DNA from: Bacteroidota bacterium
GTDB lineage: Bacteria; Bacteroidota; Bacteroidia; 2-12-FULL-35-15
DNA: 64,000 nt
NCBI GenBank assembly: GCA_947504725.1
Contig: CANNHN010000002.1
Coordinates: 186,001 to 250,000, forward strand
Direction of reading: 5' to 3'
The position numbers and the translations under genes were made by a program. This document shows positions 50,635 through 62,227 of the stretch, in pieces (position 1 is the first letter of the stretch; the number at the start of each line of letters is the position of its first letter). Below the pieces are notes generated by a model. That model saw only the letters and a program-made list of their open reading frames with translations. It had not been told where the DNA came from and did not search any database.

Positions 50635-53600
50635 CTATTTATGACCTAATAATTGAAGATATCCTTTTGCATCAAATTGTTTTCCATTGATTGTTTCTGC
50701 TTTTACAATATAGAAATAAGTTCCGTCAGTTGAATCTCCACCATCCCAACTCTTAGTAATGTCATTTGATTCAAAAACTTTACTTCCCCAACGATTGAAA
50801 ATTGAAATAGAGAATGTTTTTATTCCATTTGCAGAAATCACAAAGAAATCATTGTTCCCATCTCCATTAGGTGTAAATACGTTCGGAATATCTAGATCAC
50901 AATCTAGTATAACATCTACAACAACTGTGTCTACCGTTACAAATCCACAAGCATCAATCACTACAACTTGATAAATATTTGTAGTTGGCACCGATGGATT
51001 AACTAGTGCAGAAGGGGAGTTTGAATTTTGAATAGAATCTCCTGCAAATCCAGAAATGATTGACCAAGAATAACTATTGTTGCCAAAACCACCGCTGCTA
51101 GAAGATGCAAGGTTAAAGGGTGAGCCTACACAAACTTCTTGATTCGCTCCGGCATTCACGCTTAGTGGAGATACAATAGGAATAAAAACGGTAACGCTAT
51201 CTATCCCTGCACCTGAAGCGCACTGACTTGTTCCCGAAACCGTATATGTTGTTGTAACAAAGGGGCTTGCTGTTGGGTTTGCAATTAATGGGTTAGACAA
51301 TGTTCCAGCTGGCGACCAAACAAATTGTGTTGCACCTGTTGCATTTAAATTTGTAGGAGCTCCCGGACAAATTGTATCATTAAGTCCAGCATCAACTGAA
51401 AGAGAAGTAACGTTTGCAAGAACATCAACAAAAGCCGTATCTAAACATCCGCTTGTTGTATCTGTAACAATTACATAATAGGTTGTTGTTCCATTTGGAG
51501 GTGTTGCTCCAGTTGTTTGTGCTGTTGTGTTAAATACTCCCCCAATAGATGGGGCCCAAGAATAACTGTAAACGCTAGAATCAGGAGCCGCTCCACAATA
51601 TTGGAAACGAATGTTTGGTCGGTTACTAATTGCAGTTGCAAAACCTAAATCTGGACACATAGGTGATGAGTCGCTTAGATTATATAAACATGAAACAAAA
51701 GGTGTTACAGTGTATGGCGAAATACAGCTTGTCGTATAATTTGGGAAAGGAGGTCCTTCATTAAAACAAATTTCAACAATTAAGTTTGAAATTCCGTCCC
51801 ACTCATAAGCAACATCAAATGGGTGTGCGTTCCATCCCGTTGCAACTGTAAAGTTCTTAGGTGTATATACATTTGATAAACCCGTAACCCATGTGGTAAG
51901 CGCATTTAAACTTGTACAACCCATATTGATTGTATACTGGTGATACAAAGTAATACCACTTATTGTTACAACATTAAACTCAATCTGATCTATTTTTCCT
52001 CCTGTAATACCTGCTGACGTTAATTCAGATGCCAAGAATAACATTTGGTGTTTTCCTGAAGTATACCAGTTTGCATAAGGTGCTGGCCATGTTGTAGAAG
52101 TATTTGTTGCAGTTCCTGTTCCAACTTGCGCTACTAATGATGCCGAACATCCAATTGGATTTGTTCCACAAACAGAAGGAACACTCGCTCCGAAAGTAAC
52201 ACCAAGGTTAACAGTATCTCCAACACAAATAATAGAATCTGAAACATAAGAGACTGGATTTGGAGGATAGCTCGCATTAATTACAATGGTTGCTGTATCT
52301 GTTTTAACACAACCCAATGGGCTTGTGATTTGAACATAATACGTATATGTTCCAGGACTAGTAATTGTAGCCGTTGGATTAGAAATAGTAGGGTTATCCA
52401 AATATGTTGATGGGGACCAAACATAAGTATATGTTCCCGCTGGCGAAGATGTTGCGTCAAACTCAATTGGCTGTAATAAACAAGATGTAGATGCGCTTTG
52501 TACAGTTGTTAACGTAAAATCTGCAACTACTGTAATTGTTATTGTATCTCTGTTTACACACGTTCCGCTTAGGTCACTCACAACTTCATAGGTTGTTGTT
52601 GATACTGGTGATGCAATTGGATTATCACATGGATTGCAAGAAAAATTTGTTCCGACAACCATAGCCGGACCAGATAAAACACTCCAGTTAAATACGCTTC
52701 CACCAGTCCCTGCAAGCGTAGCCGTTTGAGTTCCACAAATGATTTGATCTCCACCACCCAATGTCCTTGGGTTTACATTCACATCATAAACAAACGTTTG
52801 TTGCCCCATAACAGGACAAGCACCATCATTTACTGTTACGCTAAAGGTTGTGTTGGTTCCTGCAGTTCCCCCTGGCGCTGTCCAGCTAATAACAACTGTA
52901 AGCGGATTTGTTCCAGTAAAAGTAATTGTTGCTCCTGGCAACACAGTTAAAATATTTGAAATAATAGACAATGAATCACCTGCATCTGAATCCGTATATA
53001 TTGCTGTAAATGTGAAATTGGCTCCTTCACACATTTCTATTTCGTATGGCCCAGGAGAAACTGCCGTTCCTGTTAATCCTGTTATTGCTCCAGCCAATGG
53101 TGCAGGATCTGGAACTTGGTTTGTACAAGATTGAACAATAAATTGAATGTCGCGCATAACAGTTCCTATAAGGTTTCCTGATGCATCGTATTCTTGCACC
53201 AAGACGACCACAACAAAATTGCCGAGCACCAAAGGCGTAAACGTAAGCAACCCGGTAGCTGGATCAATAACAATTCCCGGAATTGGCGCAATTGCAGTAT
53301 ATCCTGCAGTATATCCAAGTAATGCTCCCCCTACTCCCATTGCATTAATCAAAGAAAAATATAATGAATCTCCATCCGCTTCAACCACACCATAGTTGTA
53401 GTTTACTAACTGTCCTTGACATACATAAGGAATTGGTTGAGAAGTAAAATAAGGAGAGTTGTTACACGAATCTGTTACGCTATTTAATGTCGCTTGGATG
53501 TAAGACGACTGACCTGCAGGAGTAAGAAGGTTAATAATTGCGCCATTTCTACAACAAACTTCCCAGTCCAATGTCCAAGTATCACATGGCGGAGCAAGTG

Positions 53601-53949
53601 TAATTATTCCTGTGAAATTAAAAACCCACATTCCAGGAAGTGTTCCACCGCTACAAGTGCTGTTTCCAATTTGTGCAGGACATAATTGAGAAATTTCTGT
53701 TCCACCAGGATTGGTAACAGTAAGATTTACTGTTGTGCTTCCACCACAAGTGCTTGTAGCAGTTATCATTTGCGATGCTCCAGGGTCGAAACCCAAACAG
53801 TCAACAAACAAATTTAAGTTCAACATATATTGGTTTCCACCTAAACAAGTATAGCTTAAATCTCCACCAGCAATGTGAGATGCTTTTATTGTATTTGTAA
53901 ATACAATTGATGTAAAGAAAAAAAGGATGAAGGTGATTTTTTTTGTCAT
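50635..53949 (-). CDS. Secreted protein with T9SS type B (gliding-motility-associated) C-terminal domain
   Basis: 1104 residues. Signal peptide (TIKASHIAGGDLSYTC follows it), then repeated Ig/PKD-like modules with multiple cysteine pairs, for example CEGANFTFTAIYTDSDAGDSL, ATSSPAGTYTYVWSPSTYL, and SWAPSIGGVFNTTAQTTG. The last 85 residues are the CHU_C/gliding-motility-associated domain: NVFTPNGDGNNDFFVISANG, FSISIFNRWGSKVFES, WDGGDSTDGTYFYIV, ending LQLLGHK. That is the type B T9SS signal, so it is predicted as a large surface protein. The start follows a good minus-strand promoter at 54026-53996. Confidence 0.93.
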   Translation of the reverse strand: MTKKITFILFFFTSIVFTNTIKASHIAGGDLSYTCLGGNQYMLNLNLFVDCLGFDPGASQMITATSTCGGSTTVNLTVTNPGGTEISQLCPAQIGNSTCSGGTLPGMWVFNFTGIITLAPPCDTWTLDWEVCCRNGAIINLLTPAGQSSYIQATLNSVTDSCNNSPYFTSQPIPYVCQGQLVNYNYGVVEADGDSLYFSLINAMGVGGALLGYTAGYTAIAPIPGIVIDPATGLLTFTPLVLGNFVVVVLVQEYDASGNLIGTVMRDIQFIVQSCTNQVPDPAPLAGAITGLTGTAVSPGPYEIEMCEGANFTFTAIYTDSDAGDSLSIISNILTVLPGATITFTGTNPLTVVISWTAPGGTAGTNTTFSVTVNDGACPVMGQQTFVYDVNVNPRTLGGGDQIICGTQTATLAGTGGSVFNWSVLSGPAMVVGTNFSCNPCDNPIASPVSTTTYEVVSDLSGTCVNRDTITITVVADFTLTTVQSASTSCLLQPIEFDATSSPAGTYTYVWSPSTYLDNPTISNPTATITSPGTYTYYVQITSPLGCVKTDTATIVINASYPPNPVSYVSDSIICVGDTVNLGVTFGASVPSVCGTNPIGCSASLVAQVGTGTATNTSTTWPAPYANWYTSGKHQMLFLASELTSAGITGGKIDQIEFNVVTISGITLYHQYTINMGCTSLNALTTWVTGLSNVYTPKNFTVATGWNAHPFDVAYEWDGISNLIVEICFNEGPPFPNYTTSCISPYTVTPFVSCLYNLSDSSPMCPDLGFATAISNRPNIRFQYCGAAPDSSVYSYSWAPSIGGVFNTTAQTTGATPPNGTTTYYVIVTDTTSGCLDTAFVDVLANVTSLSVDAGLNDTICPGAPTNLNATGATQFVWSPAGTLSNPLIANPTASPFVTTTYTVSGTSQCASGAGIDSVTVFIPIVSPLSVNAGANQEVCVGSPFNLASSSSGGFGNNSYSWSIISGFAGDSIQNSNSPSALVNPSVPTTNIYQVVVIDACGFVTVDTVVVDVILDCDLDIPNVFTPNGDGNNDFFVISANGIKTFSISIFNRWGSKVFESNDITKSWDGGDSTDGTYFYIVKAETINGKQFDAKGYLQLLGHK

Positions 53950-54230: not shown

Positions 54231-55193
54231 TTATCTTTTTAAAATGATTTTACCGCTTTGTTCGTATTTTTTACTGTCTTTTCCTTCGGCTTTTTGTATG
54301 TAATAATACTCGCCTTCTTTAACTGGCTTTCCTTTTAAATTCGTTCCATCCCATTTAGCAGCTAAGCTTCCTGATTGATAAACGATCATTTTGTTTTTGT
54401 CAAACACAACAACCGTTTGATTTATCAAATTCTCTGCATTGAAACCAAAATAATCTCTTAGCCCATCTCCGTTTGGAGAAAAGTCTCCAGAAGCAGAACG
54501 AACGGATGAGTTTTCTTTTGCCGTTACTTCAATCTTTATACTATCGGATGAAGCCTTACCATCAGCAGAAATCGAAGTTAAAACAACGGTATAAATTCCT
54601 GGCTCGTCATAATAATGAGGCGGGTTTGTTCCTGTTTCTTTTTTGCCATCACCAAAATCCCACTTATTTGTTTTTCCAATTCCATTATTCATAAAATTAA
54701 CAACAAGCCCCGCTTGTCCACCAATTGGGCTTGCAGAGATGTCTGCAACGGCTTGTTCTGAATACTCTCTAATTACAGAGTTTATTTTGTCGTTTGTAAT
54801 TGTAAGTGTGTTTTGAGGCTCATCAATCTTTTTAACAACAGGCTCGGAAACAATCTCTTTGTTTTCTGGAGTTAAAAATGTTTTGATTTCGTCTACAGTC
54901 GGTTTAACTGTTTCTGCAACAACTTTCGGTTTTCCCGTTTCTTTAGTCGCTGGCTTGTTTGTTTTTGTTCCTGTTCCGTTCATTACAAATACGGTTGCAA
55001 TAACAGCTGCTGCAGAAGAAACGATTGATATAACCGCGCTTGAGCCCATTTTATTAAGAAGCATTTTTCCTAACAAGCCTAAGCTTGCTCCTTTTAAAGC
55101 TGTTTGAACGTTCTTCCAAACACTTGGATTAACGTCAGCTTCAAAATTCTCAAATGAATCTTTAAATAAATCTTCTAAATTGTCTTTCTTCAT
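54231..55193 (-). CDS. Anti-sigma-like membrane protein with PKD and gliding-motility-type C-terminal domain
   Basis: 320 residues. The first 45 residues (NLEDLFKDSFENFEADVNPSVWKNV) look like the cytoplasmic part of ECF partner proteins in Bacteroidota. A membrane helix at about 53-71 follows (AVISIVSSAAAVIATVFVM), then a charged linker, a PKD domain at about 148-232 with WDFGDGKKETGTNPPHYYDEPGIYTV, and a terminal domain at about 238-320 (GDFSPNGDGLRDYFGF, VVVFDKNKMIVYQSG, KWDGTNLKGKPVKEGEYYYI) related to the type B domain of the neighbouring cargo. Its start is two bases from the sigma stop. Probably holds the sigma factor at the membrane and senses an envelope signal; this is inference. Confidence 0.85.
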   Translation of the reverse strand: MKKDNLEDLFKDSFENFEADVNPSVWKNVQTALKGASLGLLGKMLLNKMGSSAVISIVSSAAAVIATVFVMNGTGTKTNKPATKETGKPKVVAETVKPTVDEIKTFLTPENKEIVSEPVVKKIDEPQNTLTITNDKINSVIREYSEQAVADISASPIGGQAGLVVNFMNNGIGKTNKWDFGDGKKETGTNPPHYYDEPGIYTVVLTSISADGKASSDSIKIEVTAKENSSVRSASGDFSPNGDGLRDYFGFNAENLINQTVVVFDKNKMIVYQSGSLAAKWDGTNLKGKPVKEGEYYYIQKAEGKDSKKYEQSGKIILKR

Positions 55194-55195
55194 AA

Positions 55196-55726
55196 TTAAT
55201 CCTTATCTATTGGAATGATTTTCTGTAAATGTGCCTTTGCTCTTGAATACTGCGATTTTGAAGTGCCTTCTGCTATGTTAAGCATTTCTCCAATCTCTTT
55301 ATGTGAATAACCCTCAATTGCATAAAGGTTAAATACTGTTTTAAATCCTACTGGCAACGTTTGTATAATCTTTAACAAATCCTTCGCTGCAAAGCTGTCA
55401 TTTTGATATATATCAGACGGGAGCATAAACTCTACACTATCCAGTTCAATATTTTGTTTTAATTTTTTGTTTTTACGAATATTGGTAAGTGCTGTATTTA
55501 CCATAATCTTTCTAACCCAACCTTCTAAAGAACCCGTCCCTTTAAAGGACTCAATATTTTCAAAAATGCTGATAAATCCGTTTTGTACAACATCCTCTGC
55601 TTCCTCTGAACTATCACAATATCGTAGGCAAACACCCATCATCTTGCGAGAGAACTTTTCGTACAAGTTTTTCTGAGCAATTGCATTCTTATCGATGCAC
55701 CCTTTTACTATTTGCTCATCAGTCAT
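55196..55726 (-). CDS. ECF-type RNA polymerase sigma factor
   Basis: 176 residues, sigma-70 group 4. Region 2 includes NLYEKFSRKMMGVCLRYCDSSEEAEDVVQNGFISIFENI; region 4 includes LPVGFKTVFNLYAIEGYSHKEIGEMLNIAEGTSKSQYSRAK, with the helix-turn-helix KEIGEMLNIAEGTSKSQ. It forms a two-gene operon with the PKD membrane protein, and faces RNase R on the other side. Minus-strand CAACTTTG at 55761-55754, a one-mismatch -7 box, lies 27 bases upstream of the ATG. Confidence 0.94.
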   Translation of the reverse strand: MTDEQIVKGCIDKNAIAQKNLYEKFSRKMMGVCLRYCDSSEEAEDVVQNGFISIFENIESFKGTGSLEGWVRKIMVNTALTNIRKNKKLKQNIELDSVEFMLPSDIYQNDSFAAKDLLKIIQTLPVGFKTVFNLYAIEGYSHKEIGEMLNIAEGTSKSQYSRAKAHLQKIIPIDKD

Positions 55727-55807
55727 AATCGATTTCTGTTGTATAGATGCAAAGTTGCATTATTTGGTTGCACGGATAAAGTTTTTTTTAGTTTTTATCA
55801 ACAAATC

Positions 55808-55842: not shown

Positions 55843-58254
55843 ATGGCTAAGAAGTTTCAAAGCAAAACGCAGGGAAAGAAAAAGAGCTTTTTTTTCGAAG
55901 AAATACTCAAGGTATTGTCTGCCAACCGTAACAAGTCCCTCAATTACAAGCAGATAGCTGCTGAATTAAAAATTACAGATTTTGCACAAAGGCAATTAAT
56001 CAACGTAATTTTAGAAGAATTAAAGAACAATGGTTCTGTTATAGAGCCAGAAAGAGGGAAATTTAAAATCAAAAGCGTTGAAATTTACATTACGGGCAAA
56101 GTGGACATGACTTCCACTGGTAGCGCTTATATAGTATCGGATGACACCGAAAAAGACGTAGTTGTTTCTCCTAAGAAAACGCTCAATGCAATGCATGGCG
56201 ATATTGTTAAGGTTCGAGTATTTCCTCAAGGTAAAGGGAAACAAGAAGGGGAAATTGTGGAAGTACTAGAACGAAATAAGACTGAGTTTGTGGGAACCAT
56301 ACAGGTTTCGCCAAAATTTGCCTTTTTAGTGCCGAGTAACAATAAAATACATGTAGATATCTATATTCCTATAGAAAAGCTAAATGGAGCAAAAGATGGA
56401 CAAAAAGCAATTGCCAGAATTGTAGAGTGGCCGAAAAATGGGGTAAATCCTATTGGTGAAATTAAATCGGTATTGGGCGATGTAGGCGAAAACAACACCG
56501 AAATGCATGCTATTTTAGCCGAATATGGTCTTCCATATGAGTTTCCGAAAGATGTGGAACGTGCTGCAGATCTTATTCCAATTATAATTACAGAAGAAGA
56601 AATTTCAAAAAGACGGGATTTTAGAGAAATAACAACATTTACAATTGATCCTGTTGATGCAAAAGATTTTGATGATGCTCTATCTATCCAAAAATTAAAA
56701 AACGGTAACTGGGAAATTGGAGTCCACATTGCCGATGTAAGTCATTACGTTAAACCAGATTCGATGATAGACAAGGAAGCAATTTCGCGTGCTACATCTG
56801 TTTACCTTGTGGATAGGGTTGTTCCTATGCTTCCAGAAGTTTTATCAAACAACGTTTGTTCGCTTCGACCGAATGAAGAAAAATTGTGTTTCTCTTCTGT
56901 GTTTGAGATGACAGACGATGCAGAGGTGGTTGCTGAATGGTTTGGAAGAACAATTATTAATTCCGACAGGCGCTTTACTTACGAAGAGGCACAGCTAGTA
57001 ATAGAAACAGAAGAAGGCGATTTTAAAGAAGAAATTTTAACGCTGGATCGACTTGCAAAAACATTGCGCTCAAATCGTTTTAAAAAAGGAAGTATCGCTT
57101 TCGAAAAAATGGAAGTAAAATTTCATTTGGATGAAGTTGGAAATCCGACTGGAGTGTTTTTTAAAGTCGCCAAAGATTCCAATCAGCTGATTGAAGATTT
57201 TATGCTTTTGGCAAACAGAAAAGTTGCGGAATTTGTTGGAAAGAAAAAACAAGAAGGCAAGAAGCAAGAACAAAAAACAACAGAGTCCCAAAGGCCTTTT
57301 GTATATCGTATTCACGATAAGCCCAATCCAGATAAGTTGCAAAACTTCTCGGAATTTGTGGCGAAGTTTGGTTATAAACTAAACGTAAACAACATCAATA
57401 CGGTTGCCGATTCAATGAATAATTTATTGAAAGAGGTAAACCAGAAAAAAGAATCCGGAATGATTGAAATGCTTGCTATTCGTACAATGGCGAAGGCGGT
57501 ATATACCACAAAAAATATTGGACACTACGGATTAGGATTTGATTATTACACGCACTTCACTTCTCCTATCAGAAGATATCCGGATGTAATGGTGCATCGT
57601 TTGTTGCAACATTATTTAGATGGAGGAAAAAATCCAGATATCGATAAGCTAGAAGAACAATGCAAGCACTCTTCAGAAATGGAGAAACTTGCAGCTGATG
57701 CGGAGCGCTCCTCTATAAAGTATAAACAAGTACAATACTTAACAGATAAAATCGGACAAGAGTTTGATGGTGTAATTTCAGGTGTTACGGAATGGGGAAT
57801 ATTTGTGGAAATTATAGAAAATCATTGTGAAGGAATGGTCCGATTACGCGAATTGCGTGACGATGCTTATTATTTTGATGAAGATAATTATTGTTTACGT
57901 GGACGAAAATTTGGAAAAGTATTAACGCTTGGAGATACCGTTAGAATTGAGATTAAGCGTGCCGACTTAGTAAAAAAACAATTGGATTTTGCATTGGTGG
58001 AGGTGTTGGAAGATTCAAATAAGAAACAAGAATCAAGAAACAAGAATCAAGATAGAGAACAAAATGGTCCTCGATCAAAACGCGAACAACACAAAGCGAA
58101 AAGCAAAAATTTTAAAGATGAAATGAAGTCGGCAACGGAGAAGAACAGACAAAATAAAAATGTTTCTGACACTGATAACATGCCTGCGGAACCTAAGCCA
58201 CAAAAGCCTTCTACTGGAAATCAGTTTTTGGATGAATGGGGATTTGAGGTATAG
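55843..58254 (+). CDS. rnr: Ribonuclease R
   Basis: 3'-5' processive exoribonuclease, 803 residues. In order: an N-terminal winged-helix domain (about 15-75), two cold-shock domains (about 85-235), the RNB catalytic domain (about 265-590) with TIDPVDAKDFDDALSIQ holding the metal-binding aspartates, and an S1 domain (about 640-725, GQEFDGVISGVTEWGIFVEI). A lysine/glutamine-rich insertion at about 463-486 (GKKKQEGKKQEQKTTESQ) interrupts the RNB domain, and a tail from 724 on is low-complexity and charged, partly encoded by a DNA repeat of AAGAAACAAGAATC type at 58020-58050. It is the only gene of its unit. Confidence 0.95.
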   Translation: MAKKFQSKTQGKKKSFFFEEILKVLSANRNKSLNYKQIAAELKITDFAQRQLINVILEELKNNGSVIEPERGKFKIKSVEIYITGKVDMTSTGSAYIVSDDTEKDVVVSPKKTLNAMHGDIVKVRVFPQGKGKQEGEIVEVLERNKTEFVGTIQVSPKFAFLVPSNNKIHVDIYIPIEKLNGAKDGQKAIARIVEWPKNGVNPIGEIKSVLGDVGENNTEMHAILAEYGLPYEFPKDVERAADLIPIIITEEEISKRRDFREITTFTIDPVDAKDFDDALSIQKLKNGNWEIGVHIADVSHYVKPDSMIDKEAISRATSVYLVDRVVPMLPEVLSNNVCSLRPNEEKLCFSSVFEMTDDAEVVAEWFGRTIINSDRRFTYEEAQLVIETEEGDFKEEILTLDRLAKTLRSNRFKKGSIAFEKMEVKFHLDEVGNPTGVFFKVAKDSNQLIEDFMLLANRKVAEFVGKKKQEGKKQEQKTTESQRPFVYRIHDKPNPDKLQNFSEFVAKFGYKLNVNNINTVADSMNNLLKEVNQKKESGMIEMLAIRTMAKAVYTTKNIGHYGLGFDYYTHFTSPIRRYPDVMVHRLLQHYLDGGKNPDIDKLEEQCKHSSEMEKLAADAERSSIKYKQVQYLTDKIGQEFDGVISGVTEWGIFVEIIENHCEGMVRLRELRDDAYYFDEDNYCLRGRKFGKVLTLGDTVRIEIKRADLVKKQLDFALVEVLEDSNKKQESRNKNQDREQNGPRSKREQHKAKSKNFKDEMKSATEKNRQNKNVSDTDNMPAEPKPQKPSTGNQFLDEWGFEV

Positions 58255-58380: not shown

Positions 58381-59133
58381 CTAGATCATATTCAACCTCT
58401 TCGCCAAATCATCTTTGTAAGAACCACCAATTGGAATTAGTTTTTTGTCTTCTTCCAAAATTAAATTCGGTTGTTCAATAGCAACAATCTTATCAATACG
58501 AACAATAAAAGAACGGTGAACTCGAATAAAATCGCTAGCAGGCAATTTTTTCTCAATGTCTTTCATTGTACTGTGAATGGTATAACGAGCAGCATTTGTG
58601 TTAATTACAACGTAATCTTTTAATGCTTCAACAAAATAAATATCGCTTGTTTTTACTTTTACCAAACGAGAATTTGATTTAACAAAAATGATGTCTTTTG
58701 ATTCTTTGTTTTCTACGATTGAGTACAAGAAATCTCTTTCTTTTTTTACATCCGTTTCTTTCTTGTGCTTGTAAATAGCCATTTCAATAGAAGTATGTAA
58801 ATCAATTTCTTTGAAAGGCTTAATAATATATCCGTATGGTTCCGAAACTTTTGCTTTGCTTAAGGTGCTTTCGTCAGCATAAGCCGTTAAATAAATAATT
58901 GGAATATTGTATTTCTCACGAATTTGTCCAGCAGCTTCAATTCCGCTCATATCACCCTTTAGCATGATATCCATCAAAACCAAATCAGGTTTTGTTTCTT
59001 CAGCAGTTTTAATCGCGTCTTCACCAGTTGAACACATTCCAACGACCGTGTATCCTAGTTTTTTAAGACTGTGTTGAATATCTTTTGCTACAATGCTTTC
59101 GTCTTCAACTATAAGGATGTTTGTTTTTGACAT
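58381..59133 (-). CDS. LytTR-family response regulator
   Basis: 250 residues. The receiver domain (about 4-125) has the acidic pair DE at 11-12, phospho-acceptor Asp55 in LVLMDIMLKGDMSG, and Lys105 in YIIKPF. A linker of about 25 residues follows, and the LytTR DNA-binding domain (about 150-250) has FVKSNSRLVKVKTSDIYFVEALKDYV and FIRVHRSFIVRIDKIVAIE. It is the last gene of an operon with the sensor kinase, one base apart, so they are a cognate pair. Confidence 0.94.
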   Translation of the reverse strand: MSKTNILIVEDESIVAKDIQHSLKKLGYTVVGMCSTGEDAIKTAEETKPDLVLMDIMLKGDMSGIEAAGQIREKYNIPIIYLTAYADESTLSKAKVSEPYGYIIKPFKEIDLHTSIEMAIYKHKKETDVKKERDFLYSIVENKESKDIIFVKSNSRLVKVKTSDIYFVEALKDYVVINTNAARYTIHSTMKDIEKKLPASDFIRVHRSFIVRIDKIVAIEQPNLILEEDKKLIPIGGSYKDDLAKRLNMI

Positions 59134-59134
59134 T

Positions 59135-62100
59135 TTATATGCGATTTTTTACTTGATTATATTTAAATATGATAGTATAATTTGTTCCTTTTTCTGAATT
59201 TAATTCTATTGTTCCACTCAATTGATCGGTCAAAGTTACAACTAATTGTAATCCGAGCGACTCAGTATTTCTGTAATCAATGTTTTTAGGCAATCCTTTA
59301 CCGTTATCGCCTATTTTAAGAACCAAATTGTCCTTATTCAATGACATTTTGATGGATATTTCGCCATCTTCTGTTTTCTCATCAAAGGCATACTTTAATG
59401 CATTCGAAACGATTTCGTTAATAATTAAACCACAAGGTATCGCCAAGTCTAAATTAAGAAAAACATCTTGAATGTCAAGATTTAATTTAATCTCGTGGTC
59501 AAAATTGGAATATGAGTGAATTAGATTTTGTGATAAATTCACAATATATTCTGTAAAATTAATGCTCGAAAAGTCCTTTGTTTGATATAAACTCTCATGA
59601 ATAAACGCCATCGACTTTATCCTGTTTTGACTTTCTTTCAATATGTTTAACGTTCCCTCATCTTTTACATAAGACGATTGAAGATTGAGGATACTCGAAA
59701 TAACTTGTAAATTATTTTTTACTCGATGATGAACCTCTTTTAATAGCACTTCTTTTTCCTGCAGAGAAAGTCGAATCTGCTCTTCTGAAATTTTCTTTTC
59801 TGTCACATCATGACTTATTCCAGAAACCTCGATTACAGATCCATCAGAAGCGATAATCGGATTAAGATAGATTTCTCTCCAGCTTTCATCGCCATTAGAA
59901 TCAAAAAAACTAATGTCAAAATATTGTGGGTTTCCATTAAAGGCGCCTTCATATTTTTTAATTAGAAACTCGCCCTGTTGGTTATCGTTTGAGGATTTTA
60001 TAAAGAACATGGATTGTCCAATCTTTGCACTTTCTCCATATCTAGTTTCCAATTCTTTGCTAAAGTTTTGATTAAACGTAGTTAAGCGGTACTCTTTATC
60101 TACAGTCCAAATAAAATGCGAACTGCTTTCAATAATTGCATTGAACTTGGCTGATTGAGTCTTGAGTGTTTCTTCTACTTTTTTCAAGTCAGAAATATCC
60201 CTAGAAACACCCATAGCACCAATCACTTCCCCTTCATCATTTTTCAAAATAGAGGCAGATAAGTATGCAATAAATATTTCACCATTTTTTCTTTTGTTAA
60301 TTACTTCTCCTGCATAGGCTCCTTTTTCATAAAGTTCATTATCAATAATTTTATCTCGCTGCAATGGGTTTTTATATAACATACCAACATGCTTTCCAAT
60401 TACTTCATCCAAAGTATAACCAAATGTGTTTTGTGCTGCTTGGTTAAACTCTGTTATTAAACCTTTTCTATCAGATGCACAAATCATATCAATAGAACCA
60501 TTGATAATTAGTCGAGTATATTTTTGTGATTCTAATAATTGTAATTGAATTACTTTCCGTTTGGTGATTTCTTGTTCTAATAATTCATTTGTTTCTTCAG
60601 CGATTTGGGCCCTAGCCTGCTCTTTTAACAATTGTTTTTTTGCTGAAACATCGTGAAAAACAACTTGTGACGCCTCTTGTCCATTAAATTTAATAAGAAT
60701 TGATTTTGTTTCTAAATCAATGATTTCACCTTTTTTGTTTTTTATTTTTACCTCAATAAAATCCAAGTCTTCACCCGCCTTTGTTTTTTTTATTCGATCC
60801 AATATTAGTTGATGGTATTCTGGTAAAAAGAAACCAAACGCTGATACATTTTCAAGTTCTTCAAATCCCGAAACGCCAATTATTTTGCAGGCACTCGGAT
60901 TGGCAAATTTTATTATTCCGTCAATGTGAATAATTACGCCATCTGGTGAATAGTCCACAAGACTTTTATAGTTTTCCCGGCTTTGTTTATATTGAAGCTC
61001 ATTTTGTTTTTTTTCATCTATATCAATGATGAACCCTTCCAAGAAGAGAAGTTCTCCGCCATCAGAATAAACACCCTCTCCCTTTTCTAAAACCCACCTG
61101 AATTTTCCGGATGAGGTTATTAACCTATATTCAATTTCAAAGGAGGACTTTGTTTTTACTGCCCGCTTCACAACAGCATCTAATGCTGAGCGGTCGTCTG
61201 GATGTGTAATATCAATAAATGAAATCTTTCTATTGTTTATTATGTCTTTTGGGTTGTGCCCCGTTAAACCTTTAAAGCCTTTACTTACAAAAAGCATTGT
61301 TAAACTCTTATCGTTTTTACAACGATATGCCATTCCAGGAAGGTTGTTCATCAAAGTAGAAAGAGTCCGCTCACTCTCTTTTAGTTCTGATTCGTAATGC
61401 TTTCGTTCAGAGATATCGTAAATTACCGTTGCACGAATGGTTTTTCCAAAGTATGGAATATTCTGCCCCTTAGATACAACAGATATAATTGTCCCGTCCT
61501 TTTTTATGGTGTCAATTTCCCATGAGTTAGAAAAAGAAATTCTCAATAATTTTTTTGCAGCGCCCCAATAATCTGGAACCAAAAAATCTTCGACAACCTT
61601 CTTTCCAATCAATTCATTAACGGATTTGTAACCATACATTTTTACAAACTGGTCGTTCGCGTCAATTATTTTTCCATTATCAGAATAAACAATCCCTTCA
61701 AATGTTGTATTTGATAATATCTTAAATCTCTCTTCACTTTGTTCCAGCGCTCTTTTTGTCAGCACAGTTTCCGTTATATCAACTACATCAATTACTGCAG
61801 CTATAACTTTTTTGTTTTCAATAATTGGGGTTGCTCTCGAAGAAAAATATGCTTTTACGCCCTTTTCTCCTAGTCCTGATATCTCATATTTTTGAGGCTT
61901 TCCTGTTTTAAAAACTTTTTTTATAGCCGCATTAAAGATTGAGTGACATTCCTTGTCAATAAACTTGGTTCCTGCCTGTCCAATAACTTTATTTCCACGA
62001 GAAGGGGTTTCTTTTTTGTTGTAATCAAGAATAATCCCCTTTTTATCAATTACCAGTATTGTGTGTTCTGAGTTTTTGAAATAAGACTCCCATTTGGAAT

Positions 62101-62227
62101 CCAATGTTGCAGCCTTTTTGGGGGTTGAGGACGCAACAACCTGTTTTTTATTCAAAAGATCAATTTTTTTCTGAAGTTTTTTTACTTCAGAAATTAACTG
62201 GTCTTTTGTTTTTTTTGATATTGTCAT
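59135..62227 (-). CDS. Multi-PAS sensor histidine kinase (HisKA_2 type)
   Basis: 1030 residues with no obvious membrane helices, so cytoplasmic. A short coiled coil (2-33) is followed by about six PAS domains (about 45-160, 165-280, 290-405, 412-530, 565-685, 692-815) with PAS-typical ends such as VVDITE, FIIDIDEKK and GVSRDISDLKK. The kinase core has HHRVKNNLQVISSILNLQS, the HisKA_2 phospho-acceptor motif, at about 830, then N-box IINEIVSNALKYAF and G-box IGDNGKGLP. Multiple PAS domains suggest redox, light or small-molecule sensing. It pairs with the LytTR regulator downstream. Confidence 0.93.
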   Translation of the reverse strand: MTISKKTKDQLISEVKKLQKKIDLLNKKQVVASSTPKKAATLDSKWESYFKNSEHTILVIDKKGIILDYNKKETPSRGNKVIGQAGTKFIDKECHSIFNAAIKKVFKTGKPQKYEISGLGEKGVKAYFSSRATPIIENKKVIAAVIDVVDITETVLTKRALEQSEERFKILSNTTFEGIVYSDNGKIIDANDQFVKMYGYKSVNELIGKKVVEDFLVPDYWGAAKKLLRISFSNSWEIDTIKKDGTIISVVSKGQNIPYFGKTIRATVIYDISERKHYESELKESERTLSTLMNNLPGMAYRCKNDKSLTMLFVSKGFKGLTGHNPKDIINNRKISFIDITHPDDRSALDAVVKRAVKTKSSFEIEYRLITSSGKFRWVLEKGEGVYSDGGELLFLEGFIIDIDEKKQNELQYKQSRENYKSLVDYSPDGVIIHIDGIIKFANPSACKIIGVSGFEELENVSAFGFFLPEYHQLILDRIKKTKAGEDLDFIEVKIKNKKGEIIDLETKSILIKFNGQEASQVVFHDVSAKKQLLKEQARAQIAEETNELLEQEITKRKVIQLQLLESQKYTRLIINGSIDMICASDRKGLITEFNQAAQNTFGYTLDEVIGKHVGMLYKNPLQRDKIIDNELYEKGAYAGEVINKRKNGEIFIAYLSASILKNDEGEVIGAMGVSRDISDLKKVEETLKTQSAKFNAIIESSSHFIWTVDKEYRLTTFNQNFSKELETRYGESAKIGQSMFFIKSSNDNQQGEFLIKKYEGAFNGNPQYFDISFFDSNGDESWREIYLNPIIASDGSVIEVSGISHDVTEKKISEEQIRLSLQEKEVLLKEVHHRVKNNLQVISSILNLQSSYVKDEGTLNILKESQNRIKSMAFIHESLYQTKDFSSINFTEYIVNLSQNLIHSYSNFDHEIKLNLDIQDVFLNLDLAIPCGLIINEIVSNALKYAFDEKTEDGEISIKMSLNKDNLVLKIGDNGKGLPKNIDYRNTESLGLQLVVTLTDQLSGTIELNSEKGTNYTIIFKYNQVKNRI

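Follow-up and report, generated by a model that had tools for sequence, protein, structure and literature searches.

What does a T9SS sorting-like domain do on a protein predicted to stay in the inner membrane, and which genes are controlled by the sigma factor encoded beside it? The question is raised by two adjacent genes in a stretch of 64,000 nt of Bacteroidota DNA (the window), one encoding an ECF sigma factor and the other a membrane protein whose C-terminus resembles the sorting domain of type B cargo. It bears on how Bacteroidota fit the large cost of T9SS cargo (~200 proteins in this genome) to the capacity of the machine. We consider an autoregulated sigma/anti-sigma pair with a sensor derived from a type B domain and a cargo-rich regulon to be the best overall explanation of the locus, and on balance a probable one.

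Results

The sigma factor gene and its neighbours

The preliminary description of this DNA had placed an ECF sigma factor and a membrane partner at 54231–55726, and the reading frames are right (Table 1). The sigma protein matches regions 2 and 4 in library scans (Sigma70_r2, 7.9e-16; Sigma70_r4_2, 3e-13), and full-length orthologues from the same genus are 67–95% identical to it. The same partner lies 3′ of the sigma gene in every same-genus locus that has the sigma gene and readable downstream DNA, and the pairing is therefore not due to chance. The gene next downstream of the partner encodes a cargo protein (50635–53949); a PorP/SprF shuttle gene is absent directly downstream of the partner.

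A second sigma factor of the family, 44% identical, is encoded in the same genome on contig C2 near 93087 (L059:585–1857). Its partner has 241 aa and a membrane helix and carries no known C-terminal domain, and this pair is found in further genomes of the genus too. Within the window, a divergent RNase R-like gene (55843–58254) separates the sigma locus from a large sensor-kinase-like protein adjoining a LytTR-like response regulator (58381–62227, minus strand), both recognized from the translations of open reading frames only.

Table 1 Features of the locus, in window coordinates
Feature	Position	Strand	Basis
Predicted sigma-gene promoter (autoregulation), TGCAACC-AAATAATGCAACTTTG-CATCT, 18 nt before ATG	55745..55772	-	conserved upstream of sigma
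ECF sigma factor gene, 176 aa	55196..55726	-	Pfam Sigma70_r2 and r4_2, NCBIfam sigma70-ECF; same-genus orthologues
Predicted anti-sigma factor gene, 320 aa	54231..55193	-	start codon 2 nt past sigma stop; adjacency
Residues 1–45, putative cytosolic anti-sigma domain, near-invariant W26	55059..55193	-	homology to N-terminus of barrel-bearing partners; two modelled helices
Residues 49–72, single transmembrane helix	54978..55049	-	hydropathy 2.37 at residue 53; modelled helix 55–72
Residues 73–146, mostly disordered periplasmic linker	54756..54977	-	pLDDT; 22% mean pairwise identity
Residues 147–226, PKD domain	54516..54755	-	Pfam match; structure match
Residues 236–320, CHU_C / type-B-sorting-like domain, presumed sensor	54234..54488	-	PF13585 and TIGR04131 above cut-off
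Residues 266–268, KNK at the position of RWG in type B cargo	54390..54398	-	column comparison, counts

Domain organization of the partner protein

Library scans, hydropathy and an AlphaFold2 model calculated with 39 aligned relatives agree on the layout proposed earlier, namely one membrane helix, a PKD domain and a type B-like terminal domain. The partner matches PKD (2.9e-12) and CHU_C (2.8e-12), and scores 47 bits against a cut-off of 27 for PF13585 (CHU_C) and 37.1 against 35 for TIGR04131. Besides the membrane helix, the model contains N-terminal helices at residues 6–15 and 23–36; its confidence is low from about residue 35 to 130, with pLDDT <50 up to 130, and residues 147–320 form two confident beta-sandwich domains. 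The first of these superimposes on solved PKD domains (Z 13.1, rmsd 1.6, 79 aligned residues for 2y72). For the type B sorting domain, no structure had been solved by 2025 (PMC12618676). Hydropathy gives no N-terminal Sec signal peptide in the partner, in which the hydrophobic segment begins at residue 49, after the anti-sigma domain, and Pfam and NCBIfam scans found neither FecR nor another known anti-sigma domain.

Within the genus, conservation of the presumed sensor comes close to that of the anti-sigma domain, whereas the linker is poorly conserved, with mean identities of 62% for the anti-sigma domain, 58% for PKD, 53% for the CHU_C-like domain and 22% for the linker. A simple motif test recognized PKD in 49 of 121 relatives bearing a CHU_C domain. 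PKD is therefore optional in the wider family, and the CHU_C-like domain is the common part.

An N-terminal domain shared with barrel-bearing partners

The partner had been described as anti-sigma-like at its N-terminus, a reading that gains from comparison with partners of another type. Over the N-terminal 40 columns, CHU_C-type partners align with those that end in an outer-membrane barrel (hhalign probability 98, E 1.6e-13), and tryptophan W26 is near-invariant across partner types. The partner thus shares its N-terminal domain with the Dma-like, barrel-bearing partners of related sigma factors, which supports the anti-sigma reading; by this homology, residues 1–45 would bind the sigma factor. 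Compared by sequence with solved structures, the domain gave no match.

In some partners, the motif LFRERFxGHExxVxPxxWxxI apparently occurs twice in tandem before the membrane helix (L052, L127, L129, L131, L132, L134, L205, L209, L211 and L215), and three barrel-type partners (L157, L248 and L154) look similarly doubled at the N-terminus. Such tandem motifs might hold two sigma factors or form a doubled clamp.

Distribution and partner types

Relatives of the sigma factor occur in 93 of 99 nearby genomes and in 363 of 396 genomes of the class. We read the gene following the sigma gene in 207 loci, drawn from the best sigma matches, and classified the 202 that did not end early: 121 partners have a CHU_C-like end, 58 are of a longer outer-membrane barrel type and 23 are short, where the barrel and short labels were given by length and the counts include some loci twice through duplicate records. 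In a Pfam sample the barrel type corresponds to OMP_b-brl_2, and the short partners have no recognized domain. Barrel models matched only other partners, with no match to that of the window. The survey of other genomes proposed in the preliminary description thus finds the fusion class-wide, and cultured carriers of the CHU_C type include Crocinitomix catalasitica ATCC 23190 (L201), Acidiluteibacter ferrifornacis (L204) and Fluviicola chungangensis (L221).

Sigma factors of barrel-bearing partners are ~48–51% identical to that of the window. On the sigma tree, the three partner labels require 10 changes compared with a mean of 69.7 for shuffled labels, which indicates that the type of partner has mostly been passed on together with the sigma factor, with one or few origins likely. 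We dropped co-occurrence with the T9SS as support for sensing. We found SprA in 79 of the 80 genomes examined for it, among them those with barrel-type partners, and co-occurrence is uninformative because SprA is found nearly everywhere regardless of partner type.

The C-terminal domain differs from type B cargo at one motif

We aligned 104 CHU_C-like domains of anti-sigma factors with 27 cargo domains encoded in the genome of the window. Across the class, PNGDG..D.F, WDG, G.Y.Y and the terminal L.R occur in the anti-sigma domains at cargo-like frequency. The type B motifs SPNGDG and WDG reported for the window's partner are present; the absence of a third hallmark, RWG, had gone unnoticed. 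In the corresponding columns, cargo domains have R in 93%, W in 85% and G in 100% of sequences, compared with 15%, 0% and 64% in anti-sigma factors; no other columns of the domain diverge between the two groups as much as those of W and R. Literal RWG is found in 0 of 121 anti-sigma factors, in 22 of the 27 cargo domains of the same genome and in 21 of 26 cargo domains from six other genomes.

Each of five type B motifs is reported to be required for secretion of SprB, three of them (B, D and E) lying on strands and two (A and C) in loops (PMC12618676). From the order of the motifs and from its place on the strand that joins the PNGDG loop to the WDG loop, RWG is probably motif B. Its loss may have been a single old event, the sequences being related; the telling point is that the remaining motifs persisted. 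Since RWG is absent while the fold and most conserved residues are kept, the CHU_C-like domain looks like a derived sensor rather than an intact export signal, and without this motif the usual shuttles may well fail to recognize it.

Promoter motif and predicted regulon

The motif TGCAACC-N16-CRTCT is kept upstream of the sigma gene across the genus, 18 nt before the ATG, and the site in Table 1 is its sole exact match within the window. It also occurs upstream of many CHU_C-type sigma genes of other families. In 16 genomes of the same genus we counted 95 exact matches and 9 matches for a reversed control; spacings of 17, 18 and 19 summed gave 28 matches, mostly inside genes (23/28). We examined up to 9 kb downstream of 80 motif sites, took the first gene and called signal peptides by a simple hydropathy rule. 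Among distinct non-sigma sites, 56 of 83 are non-coding and precede a signal-peptide gene, compared with 3 of 28 spacing controls (Fisher p=1e-7).

The first genes are rich in T9SS cargo. For the 55 distinct first genes that are complete, NCBIfam assigns 19 to type B and 11 to type A and Pfam 20 and 10, where a few proteins may fall under both types; 100 other ORFs of the same regions contain 3 of type B and 4 of type A. With cargo counted as 29 of 55 first genes, compared with 7 of 100 background ORFs, the difference has p = 3e-10. First genes that recur across genomes encode SHIAGGEITYTCLGGNQY cargo, SHLMGGEITW cargo, KIPATDTKAYE proteins and small secreted MORN-repeat proteins. T9SS machine genes were not seen among the listed predicted targets.

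The MORN-repeat proteins (~180 aa, PNGNKKSEG) follow the motif in six genomes (L347, L372, L378, L406, L409 and L413). The 3.4 Mb genome of the window (G000) is itself cargo-rich, with ~150 type A and 47 type B cargo matches.

Motif sites of the window's genome precede a 232-aa type A cargo gene and a paralogue of the neighbouring cargo gene 50635–53949. The paralogue (SHIAGGEITYTCLGGNQY; L305:131–406) lies at the end of contig C3 with a sigma site 153 nt upstream, and its reading frame stops after 91 aa, near the contig end. The neighbouring cargo gene had been credited with its own promoter, and this promoter looks housekeeping-like; the upstream region contains no sigma motif. As a target of the sigma factor this gene is disfavoured for lack of a sigma site upstream, and it is probably not part of the predicted regulon.

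In several other families, the strict motif occurs only before the sigma gene itself. The further non-coding, non-sigma sites of other families that have an ORF in range precede signal-peptide-like genes in 6 of 6 cases. The same promoter motif is found at 9 of the 23 sigma genes with short partners, and another sigma factor could therefore share or own the regulon. The short-partner paralogue of the same genome (C2:93087) lacks the promoter motif.

Discussion

Proposed mechanism

That the two genes form a sigma/anti-sigma pair with the predicted regulon is, on the sequence comparisons above, very probable. The ECF sigma factor would be autoregulated, and its inner-membrane anti-sigma factor would belong to a modular Bacteroidota family that includes the Dma-like barrel form. 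At rest, residues 1–45 would keep the sigma factor at the membrane; one helix would span the inner membrane, and the flexible linker would present a periplasmic sensor derived from the type B sorting domain. A change of state of this sensor would free the sigma factor, perhaps through pulling or proteolysis, and the freed sigma factor would raise its own expression and activate genes for secreted proteins and for surface proteins exported by the T9SS. Given a sensor that derives from a T9SS signal and predicted targets that are cargo, the input may be the state of the T9SS, such as an idle or vacant translocon, or a free shuttle, with the domain bound to it. Loss of RWG could permit contact with the machine without export, or could have cut the contact altogether.

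Whether the C-terminal domain senses the T9SS is a nearly even question, on which we lean slightly to the negative. Still more tentative is the broader proposal that a T9SS sorting domain was taken over by a class-wide anti-sigma family to sense the secretion state (idle, saturated or broken), with feedback of substrate flux onto cargo expression.

Alternative readings of the anchored domain

The main rival keeps the same pair and regulon and lets the C-terminal Ig-like fold sense another cue of the periplasm or outer membrane, such as a glycan, peptidoglycan or an unfolded surface protein, with no contact to the T9SS. It draws on the complete absence of RWG from the 121 anti-sigma factors, where SprB needs each of the five conserved type B motifs for secretion (PMC12618676), on the barrel, or no domain at all, found at the same place in relatives, and on PKD being a general binding module. 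Against it stand the remaining signature residues, which the class retains about as often as cargo does, and the abundance of T9SS cargo in the predicted regulon. We regard this rival as a real possibility, though somewhat doubtful.

A link to the T9SS had been proposed earlier, and the cargo-rich predicted regulon supports it; in its simplest form, with the anchored domain as an intact mimic of cargo and a rival of real cargo for the machinery, the proposal is unlikely. The domain does score above the TIGR04131 and PF13585 cut-offs, but every relative lacks RWG, with the W and R columns the most divergent, and a single membrane-tethered protein would hardly compete with ~200 cargo proteins. 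It is far less probable still that the partner is ordinary type B cargo whose N-terminus is unusual and which happens to lie beside a sigma gene: by the NCBIfam domain model it would be called a T9SS type B sorting domain-containing protein, whereas ~48 residues and no signal peptide precede the helix, the N-terminus is an anti-sigma domain, the pairing is class-wide and RWG is absent.

Comparison with known systems

For a sigma or anti-sigma factor bearing a T9SS domain, our literature search yielded PorA/SigP, the ECF study of F. psychrophilum and Dma, and nothing further, although the first Dma paper (PNAS 2024) may mention one. Dma1 and Dma2 of Bacteroides thetaiotaomicron control adjacent ECF sigma factors, as established by genetics (PMC13088901). 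The pair described here shares with the Dma anti-sigma factors the adjacent ECF sigma factor, a short N-terminal anti-sigma domain, one inner-membrane helix, a disordered tether and a C-terminal domain facing the outer membrane (PMC13088901), a likeness of layout, joined by N-terminal homology to the barrel-bearing partners of related sigma factors. In contrast, Dma carries an outer-membrane beta-barrel where the present partner has a type-B-sorting-like domain, often with PKD, and the Dma regulon consists of nigD1 or PUL genes rather than predicted T9SS or secreted cargo.

With T9SS type B cargo of the SprB class (TIGR04131 / PF13585), the partner shares the C-terminal domain family and most signature residues, but it has no signal peptide, is anchored in the inner membrane, and lacks both RWG and an adjoining PorP/SprF gene. 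Orphan type B cargo without a PorP/SprF gene downstream is known (PMC12618676).

In the PorA–PorXY–SigP system of Porphyromonas gingivalis, too, the ECF sigma factor serves the T9SS and acts downstream of a protein that bears a T9SS C-terminal domain (PMC7712824). However, PorA is located at the surface and signals through a two-component system, whereas here the domain sits on the anti-sigma factor itself, and SigP governs T9SS machine genes where the targets predicted here are cargo. The SM6 ECF regulon of Flavobacterium psychrophilum likewise ties an ECF sigma/anti-sigma pair to T9SS genes; unlike the present system, its targets are machine genes (gldN, porU), it has a CGT box in the -10 region, and the parts of its description available to us give no cargo-like sensor (PMC9723704).

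The known routes, PorXY–SigP and SM6, thus act on the machine, whereas the sigma factor described here is predicted to control cargo and its anti-sigma factor bears a derivative of the cargo signal, which makes secretion feedback directly testable in cultured strains. A T9SS sorting signal that has apparently turned sensor, in which a single motif is gone and the others persist, also helps to map the role of each motif. The locus is of a known kind, that of modular Bacteroidota anti-sigma factors, and represents a variant with a cargo-like sensor in a real, conserved regulatory family. What appears to be new is the RWG-less, type-B-derived putative sensor on an anti-sigma factor, together with a sigma promoter whose predicted regulon is rich in cargo.
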